Shown here: piece by piece, positions 2,242 through 60,633 of the stretch
Position numbering within the stretch: the stretch's first letter is position 1
How the letters are laid out: each line of letters opens with the position of its first letter
Assembly: GCF_900119895.1 (NCBI RefSeq)
Contig: NZ_FQLR01000003.1
Coordinates: 1 to 64,000, forward strand
DNA: 64,000 nucleotides
Origin: Collinsella phocaeensis
GTDB taxonomy: Bacteria > Actinomycetota > Coriobacteriia > Coriobacteriales > Coriobacteriaceae
Reading direction: 5' to 3'
Translations under genes and position numbers: made by a program
Notes under the pieces: generated by a model
Seen by the model: only the letters and a program-made list of their open reading frames with translations
Databases searched by the model: none
Told to the model about the DNA's origin: nothing

Positions 2242-3105
2242 TCACGCGCCTTCGGGAGCGTCGGCGGGACCGGACTCGGAAGCCGACTCGCGGATCAGCT
2301 TGGTAAGGGCTCGGCAGGCCTCTTCCCCAACCAGGCTGTTCGCGCGGACCGTGAGCTTGGTCGCCAGCTCATCGTCCCCGGCGTCGGCGGCGTCGGTGGC
2401 GCACATGAGCAGGCAGACGGCGATATCCGCAGACGGGCTCGTGGGGATGCCCTGCGCCGCGAGTTCGGCCACGGCTTTGCCGTCGGGCTCTTCGGCAACC
2501 TCGGGGTGCTCCTTGGTGAGGCGCGCGATGAGCTTCTCGGTGCGCGGATCGTTCGGAGCGAGGCGGAGCGCCAGGCGCGCGCAGCCCGAGGCTGCGAGCG
2601 GGACGTCCGCATCGCAGAAGAACTGGCCGAGGTTGGCGTAGGCGCGGGCGGCGGCGCGTCCGTCCGAGGCGCGCTCGAGCACGGAGTTGCTGAGGGCCGC
2701 CCACTCCTGCGTATCGTCGAGCGCCCGGAACAGCTCCGCCAGGTCGAGCCGATAGTTGCAGTTCATGGGATTCCACCGCACCGCCTGGGACAGGGCGTTG
2801 CGGGCGCTCACGTAGTCGCGCTGGCTGATGTAGGCAAACGCCATATCGGAGTACAGGCGGTCGAAGGGGACCCCGACCTGCACGAGCCGACGGGGGTCGC
2901 GCTCGACGCGCCGGTACGCCAGGCGCTCGAAGGGGTCGGCGAAGCTGAAGTACTGCACGTCCTCGCCGGCCTGACACGCAGCGGAGATGTAATCCTCGGC
3001 GAGCTCGACCAGATGCTCGAGCAAAGGAGTCGCAGTCGCCAGGTCGCCGGACGCGAGGAAATTCTCGGCGTAGGCGATGTCTTGTTCGGTTATCGGAATA
3101 TCCAC
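2242..3105 (-). CDS. TPR-like helical repeat protein of unknown function
   Basis: I do not recognise a specific family. The protein is rich in Ala/Leu/Glu and reads as a helical-repeat solenoid; stretches such as YSDMAFAYISQRDYVSARNALSQAVRWNP and ARAYANLGQFFCDADVPLAASGCARLALRLAPNDP have the spacing of tetratricopeptide repeats. A longer frame opens at an ATG at 3156, overlapping the rnr stop by 23 bp. I prefer the GTG at 3105 because GGGAGG sits 4 nt upstream and the overlap disappears. It lies between rnr and smpB in one run, which suggests, without proving, a link to RNA decay or ribosome rescue. No signal peptide or membrane segment is seen. Confidence 0.75.
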   Translation of the reverse strand: MDIPITEQDIAYAENFLASGDLATATPLLEHLVELAEDYISAACQAGEDVQYFSFADPFERLAYRRVERDPRRLVQVGVPFDRLYSDMAFAYISQRDYVSARNALSQAVRWNPMNCNYRLDLAELFRALDDTQEWAALSNSVLERASDGRAAARAYANLGQFFCDADVPLAASGCARLALRLAPNDPRTEKLIARLTKEHPEVAEEPDGKAVAELAAQGIPTSPSADIAVCLLMCATDAADAGDDELATKLTVRANSLVGEEACRALTKLIRESASESGPADAPEGA

Positions 3106-48058: not shown

Positions 48059-48089
48059 CCTCAGAAAAGGGACAGGCACTTTTCTGAGA
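48059..48089. repeat. GGGACAGGCAC palindromic repeat, copy 4
   Basis: CTCAGAAAAG and CTTTTCTGAG are perfect 10-bp arms around GGACAGGCA, abutting the possible gene relic. Confidence 0.8.
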
Positions 48090-48153
48090 GGCGCGGGGCT
48101 CAGGCTGGGAAAGCCAAGGCCGGGCGCGCCACCCGATGCGAGGGGCCGCGAAG

Positions 48154-48184
48154 CCTCAGAAAAGTGCCTGTCCCCAATTTGAGG
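48154..48184. repeat. GGGACAGGCAC palindromic repeat, copy 5 (chimeric, opposite orientation)
   Basis: CCTCAGAAAAGTGCCTGTCC followed by CCAATTTGAGG: the left arm is of the AGAAAAG type (as copy 4) and the right of the AATTTGAGG type (as copy 1), so the arms pair only at their outer CCTCA/TGAGG ends. It lies 4 bp from the ABC ATPase stop. Confidence 0.75.
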
Positions 48185-51290: not shown

Positions 51291-51308
51291 CGTTTGCTCT
51301 TGGAGCGA

Positions 51309-51434
51309 GGCTGCTCGATCCCTACGCCGGCATTACCCGGATCAGGTTGCGGGTCGAAACGGTGCGGGAAAGCTTCGGCTGGCGCCGAATCTCTGCCGCA
51401 GGTTTCCTCTCAGCCGACCTCCGCCAGCTCCCCG
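51309..51434 (-). ncRNA. TPP riboswitch (THI element) aptamer
   Basis: On the minus strand the conserved features are present: CTGAGAGG with the GGAGGTCGG strand before it, and ACCTGATCCGGGTAATGCC followed by GGCGTAGGGA. The variable P3 arm contains GGCAGAGATTCGGCGCC. It heads the thiamine-binding/thiXYZ operon and is followed by a terminator, so TPP should switch the operon off. Confidence 0.97.
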
Positions 51435-51448
51435 TTGGTACGCAGGTG

Positions 51449-51641: not shown

Positions 51642-51772
51642 ACGTTTTTCGTATAGATAATCAGAGACCCTTTGTATACCTTTACCGTGGCAATTTCCTG
51701 ACCTGCGTATTTGTTCACACGCGACAAGGGTCTACTCGGCTGAATTGAAAACGAGTACGAAAAACGTTATAG
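51642..51772. repeat. 131-bp element with terminal inverted repeats, copy A
   Basis: The left end is ACGTTTTTCGTATAG and the right end is the inverse complement of CTATAACGTTTTTCGTA. Copy B at 60502-60633 has the same ends, nearly the same length and the same orientation, and shares internal blocks (GTGGCAATT near 51698 and a CCTG-TGCG block after it). Terminal repeats with a degraded, non-coding interior suggest a MITE-like element; a structured RNA is an alternative. Confidence 0.7.
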
Positions 51773-54102: not shown

Positions 54103-54268
54103 AAAAAAACCTCCTCATCCGTGCCGCCCCGTGTCGGTCCGGGCGGCTTGTCGTACAGATGGCCCCGCCTGCGTAGACCGCGCAGCGGGGCTTCGCTCGC
54201 GCCCGACAGCGGCGCCGGACGGGCGGACGCGACAGCCGAACGTGCCGGCAGACGCGCGATAGCTCAAT

Positions 54269-60501: not shown

Positions 60502-60633
60502 TAACGTTTTTCGTATTCATAAACGATTGTGCTTAGTACACAAGACAAGTGGCAATTCTTATCCTGCGGTTATTCTGAACCGCCCCGCCTCGCTACTCGC
60601 CTCATACGCCAATCCGTACGAAAAACGCTATAG
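60502..60633. repeat. 131-bp element with terminal inverted repeats, copy B
   Basis: Left end TAACGTTTTTCGTAT, right end TACGAAAAACGCTATAG. It shares ends, length and orientation with copy A (51642-51772), plus an internal GTGGCAATTCTTATCCTGCG block. The flanks differ from copy A, which favours insertion of a discrete element. The rest of the gap up to the EamA terminator (60634-60831) holds nothing recognisable. Confidence 0.7.

Follow-up and report, generated by a model that had tools for sequence, protein, structure and literature searches.

Two palindromic elements in the window

The window, that is, the whole stretch of 64,000 nucleotides analysed (C3:1-64000), belongs to a genome of the genus Collinsella (G000; 2.1 Mb, four contigs, 98.8% complete) and contains two short palindromic elements with the following parts.

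51642-51767, minus strand: element 1, 126 bp across the outer arm ends, oriented by its core
51642-51653, no strand assigned: terminal arm of element 1, ACGTTTTTCGTA, with its inverted partner at 51756-51767; 1.0 match per window expected by chance at up to 2 mismatches
51756-51767, no strand assigned: second terminal arm of element 1, TACGAAAAACGT
51729-51739, minus strand: inner arm of element 1, CCGAGTAGACC as read on that strand
51687-51714, minus strand: core of element 1, ACAAATACGCAGGTCAGGAAATTGCCAC as read on that strand
51669-51680, minus strand: second inner arm of element 1, GGTATACAAAGG as read on that strand
60504-60628, minus strand: element 2, 125 bp across the outer arm ends
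60504-60515, no strand assigned: terminal arm of element 2, ACGTTTTTCGTA
60617-60628, no strand assigned: second terminal arm of element 2, TACGAAAAACGC, 1 mismatch
60593-60599, minus strand: inner arm of element 2, CGAGTAG as read on that strand
60549-60576, minus strand: core of element 2, AGAATAACCGCAGGATAAGAATTGCCAC as read on that strand

The terminal arms of element 1 (12+12 bp) are perfect and those of element 2 (12 bp) differ by one mismatch, and both elements have the same orientation as judged by the core (minus strand); the shared ends, common orientation and agreement in length to one base (126 versus 125 bp) described in the initial annotation are confirmed. The ends given there (51772 and 60633) overshoot the strict arms by 5 bp, which correspond to a weaker outer extension. 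The alignment of the two whole elements scores 24 versus -30 ± 5.6 for mononucleotide shuffles, and that of the interiors, with the arms removed, scores 2 versus -25 ± 5.2; none of 1000 shuffles reached the score in either case, and the two elements thus align far better than shuffled sequence. The internal GTGGCAATT...CCTG block, which had been described as retained, is the opposite-strand reading of a core found throughout the family.

A family of elements in Collinsella

The whole genome holds ten copies of 124-126 bp, and not the two first reported; all are intergenic, several lie between convergent genes, and their terminal arms are nearly identical, one copy carrying two changes in the left arm. 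The interiors are saturated with changes except for three recurrent blocks, namely CCgAGTAGaCC as one inner arm, GGTATACa or GTCTACTCgg as the opposite inner arm, and a AAAACCGCAGGTC-like core in the centre. A profile built from these ten copies finds matches in 41 of the 42 genomes of the genus at E ≤1, many of them weak, and the better ones show the same blocks with other terminal arms. The search for the exact ends in 64 other genomes of the family gave no match outside the own genome, because the ends differ between species; pairing of the arms is nevertheless retained. Across the family, the elements measure 120-175 bp and combine paired ends, inner arms and core, with about 10-15 copies found per subfamily. 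The elements constitute a palindromic family dispersed over intergenic regions of Collinsella and related gut bacteria, in agreement with the earlier description of a dispersed, non-coding and non-autonomous element with terminal inverted repeats.

A predicted nuclease gene between two elements

Outside the window, a 364-codon gene encoding a predicted endonuclease, the start of which is more likely at codon 13, is located between two copies of the element.

C1:936436-936581: copy of the element on one side of the nuclease gene
C1:936627-937718: nuclease gene
C1:937935-938081: copy of the element on the other side

Each of the 42 genomes of the genus searched (comparison genomes: one per species) has a relative of this gene, and bracketed homologues are also present in C. 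intestinalis, C. tanakaei, C. provencensis and other species. The association was assessed with a detector that considers only Watson-Crick palindromes with an outer length of 95-190 bp and uses no model of the core: in 32 of 38 gene clusters, the gene has a long palindrome no more than 700 bp away, on both sides in 9 of these 32, against about 0.06 expected per gene. The expectation derives from control sequence (10 palindromes over 217 kb, several family members included, or about 0.06 per 1.4 kb), and the count is slightly inflated by the use of the best member of each cluster; the excess over expectation is far larger. Among the six clusters negative by this detector, three (the own gene, L100 and L208) carry elements with slightly weaker arms, and no element was found at the other three, L087 (a gene without the conserved N-terminus), L216 and L220. 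At several loci, a 12-mer found de novo, without any model of the element, occurs exactly four times, two per flank; this pattern is present at L207, L212 and L233, although these were missed by the core detector. The latter was trained on family members, so its spacing statistics are partly circular, which does not apply to the palindrome-only test. The association between gene and element is very strong.

The second nuclease homologue of the own genome (L224; G000:C1:821500-826000) has a long palindrome just downstream (2908-3061) with 24-bp arms, GCTCTCCCCCTCGAAGTGAGTGGA, whose ends are unlike those of the ten copies. No relative of the nuclease was found in phages, and plasmids gave two partial Collinsella matches. 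The Coriobacteriia genomes G102, G136 and G194 each contain at least 10 distant homologues, which match the C-terminal nuclease domain only.

The partner protein

Eighteen members of the nuclease group align over their full length, with E206, D251, E266, H273 and R285 invariant and D282 conserved in 16 of them; E206, D251, E266 and H273 are residues of catalytic type. The C-terminal domain is weakly similar to DUF559 in 7 and to MTES_1575 in 13 of these 18 members (E ≤0.1), and the own protein remains below the cut-offs of both families (DUF559, PF04480, 16.6 versus 20.6 bits; MTES_1575, PF18741, 20.9 versus 38.2 bits); no HUH family appears among the Pfam matches. Fold comparison was based on an AlphaFold model (pLDDT 82, pTM 0.86) for the homologue from C. 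intestinalis, in which the C-terminal domain best matches the catalytic domain of I-Bth0305I in VIA-align (Z 9.5, 2.4 Å, 95 residues), followed by ngo0050 (Z 8.8) and Vsr (Z 7.6). Foldseek alone gave no match below E 0.001, and the call of a Vsr-like fold is based on the VIA-align second look together with the weak Pfam matches; the whole-model search listed no fold match for the N-terminal ~200 residues. On this basis, the partner is predicted to be an endonuclease with a Vsr/EDxHD-type fold. Its gene shows a dN/dS of about 0.13-0.18 in two orthologue groups and is thus under purifying selection. Elsewhere in the phylum, PF18741 matches sit in long open frames, 544 to 1850 codons in length, which represent another gene type.

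End specificity and apparent turnover of copies

The two elements that flank one gene agree in their terminal sequence, which varies from one gene type to another; the core is common to most of the family, the terminal sequence being particular to each paralogue. The ends found at the gene also occur on dispersed copies in the own genome, in C. intestinalis and in the C. aerofaciens-like group. Identity of the ends reaches 95% within the own genome and 91% within C. intestinalis, versus 83% between the two, and that of the interiors is 45-49% both within and between these species. The nuclease locus is syntenic in the two genomes, with neighbouring proteins mostly 75-95% identical and the nuclease 58%, and no dispersed element was found at a shared site in the regions compared, which implies that copies have been gained or lost. 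From these sequence comparisons, the nuclease gene appears to be vertically inherited and fast-evolving, and the element population appears to have turned over; dispersal of the elements is suggested chiefly, and indirectly, by this contrast.

A probable REPtron-like pair

The closest parallel is the REPtron, in which a RAYT/TnpA-REP tyrosine transposase is accompanied by REP palindromes, both next to its gene and dispersed (PMC2817692, PMC8266576). In both cases a gene lies between two palindromic elements, cognate copies are spread over intergenic sites, the gene itself is confined to a single locus with apparently vertical inheritance, and several paralogues with their own palindromes coexist in one genome. 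The partner, however, is here a predicted Vsr/EDxHD-type nuclease instead of an HUH (IS200/IS605-like) tyrosine transposase; the elements are 120-175 bp long with paired ends, inner arms and core, in contrast to REPs of 20-40 bp; and the copies found per subfamily are far from the more than 100 often reached by REPs. By analogy, the Collinsella pair would work like a REPtron but is none, as it has another enzyme and another element architecture. With EDxHD homing endonucleases such as I-Bth0305I (PMC3943268), the protein shares the catalytic fold, according to the predicted model, and an E/D/H/D-type set of residues (E206, D251, H273 and D282); unlike them, the genes are free-standing, chromosomal and bracketed by elements, and are not located within an intron or within their own target, and the N-terminal 200 residues resemble nothing matched. 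DUF559/MTES_1575 proteins are comparable through the weak C-terminal similarity, and differ in that the own protein falls below both curated cut-offs.

The dispersed palindromic elements and a Vsr/EDxHD-fold endonuclease of the same genome probably form a REPtron-like pair, in which the enzyme would act in trans on its cognate elements. This reading is supported by the bracketing layout, the paralogue-specific ends, the shared core, the constraint in place described below and the conserved catalytic-type residues. The nuclease, in dimeric or higher-order form, would bind both terminal arms and perhaps also the inner ones, and would cut or nick the DNA there; the elements may thereby be copied or moved in trans while the nuclease gene stays at one locus. 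More tentatively, a new class of prokaryotic element system may be represented by vertically inherited Vsr/EDxHD-type endonucleases that are unrelated by descent to RAYT/REP; a Coriobacteriia genome would encode several such paralogues, every one in co-evolution with a dispersed population of palindromic elements that it copies, moves or uses in place. The enzyme-plus-repeat system looks undescribed: the literature search found no paper linking DUF559 to Collinsella or to inverted repeats, and the papers found contained no description of these palindromic repeats. If the reading is true, it would provide a context for an abundant, uncharacterised nuclease-like family of common human gut bacteria, and the RAYT/REP arrangement of a palindrome-bracketed enzyme gene with dispersed cognates would have arisen again from an unrelated enzyme; since each paralogue has ends of its own, the specificity of protein for DNA and their co-evolution can be tested directly.

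Constraint in place and alternative readings

The main rival to a REPtron-like pair is a non-mobile role, in which the elements are fixed binding sites that the nuclease-like protein uses where they are, be it to control genes, to organise the chromosome or to tell self from non-self, and which bracket its own gene for autoregulation. The same elements are retained at orthologous positions in sets of 12 and 19 close species. Pairwise difference there amounts to 0.006-0.009 for the left arm, 0.017 and 0.085 for the right arm and 0.03-0.04 for the core, versus 0.10-0.14 for the flanks and a maximum of 0.26 for the gaps. Ends and core thus evolve several-fold slower than the flanks, which indicates that both are maintained after insertion and shows purifying selection on them in place; such persistence also fits a fixed role. 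Fixed sites would likewise agree with the results on insertion: no clean empty site was found at the two conserved sites in C. aerofaciens-like genomes, where element-free genomes have the entire intergenic region replaced, and none of 44 elements shows a target duplication of at least 3 bp, 2-bp duplications numbering 4 versus 3 expected, with the proviso that the palindrome ends may differ from the true ends. Both results, like the three gene clusters without an element, weigh against the REPtron-like pair. The site of element 2 in relatives carries no element, the intergenic regions being too diverged or replaced to reveal an empty site. The gain or loss of dispersed copies around a nuclease locus common to the own genome and C. 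intestinalis argues against fixed sites, as does the conservation of catalytic-type residues, and this alternative is considered rather unlikely, the REPtron-like pair remaining the preferred reading.

Two further observations concern these sites. Unrelated sequence replaces entire intergenic regions between conserved genes in closely related species, as in G002/G003 at site A and G020/G031 at site D. At site D (L291-L308, C. aerofaciens-like), the gap that separates the core from the left inner arm shows a difference of 0.26 between species versus 0.12 for the flanks, and consists of few haplotypes, as if swapped between copies.

The simplest reading in the initial annotation, a MITE, is very unlikely in the form of an ordinary element moved by a classical (e.g. 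DDE) transposase, with an incidental link to the nuclease gene. The elements resemble DDE-transposase MITEs in being short, non-coding and dispersed with terminal inverted repeats, but they lack target duplications and their ends are selected in place; in the 98.8% complete genome, no longer transposon with the same ends was found, the exact arms being confined to the ten short elements, and the predicted Vsr-fold nuclease gene is repeatedly bracketed by two complete elements with paralogue-specific ends.

As for the choice between DNA and RNA, an RNA hairpin is expected to favour G.T mismatches. Among 81 distinct elements, G.T and A.C mismatches number 100 and 77 in the outer 26 positions (p 0.10), and 82 and 87 in the inner arms. 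The distance from core to right arm in 81 elements, taken from the partly circular core detector, is 16-18 in 65, 26-28 in 11 and 40-41 in 5; in the last five it has probably been misassigned to the end arm, which contains CTAC in that subfamily, and an earlier overlapping set of 44 elements shows only distances of 17/18 and 26/27. A step of about 10 bp is suggestive of one turn of the DNA double helix. Rfam 15 gave no match up to E 1 in nine element loci, and none over element 1 in the window. The mismatches without strand bias, the helical-turn spacing and the missing Rfam match favour DNA over RNA, and transcription of the element into a structured small RNA or a cis-regulatory RNA, an alternative also raised initially and consistent with the long hairpin potential, the conserved asymmetric core and the arms that vary between species with pairing kept, is likewise very unlikely.

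Other repeats and RNA motifs in the window

A second short repeat family, unrelated to the 125-bp elements and correctly kept apart from them in the initial annotation, is formed by the GGGACAGGCAC hairpin motifs, with six exact occurrences in the window versus 0.03 expected (34373, 47920, 48069, 48164 on the minus strand, 52025 and 52289 on the minus strand). They include two inverted pairs, of which 48069-48174 forms a 20-bp palindrome spanning 106 bp. On the minus strand, a TPP riboswitch at 51302-51444 (47 bits, slightly below the gathering score of 54.3, E 5e-8) lies about 200 bp away from element 1 and upstream of ABC transporter genes and a small gene, and an aspS leader RNA of a known family (RF02930, 76.7 bits) is located at 54109-54191.
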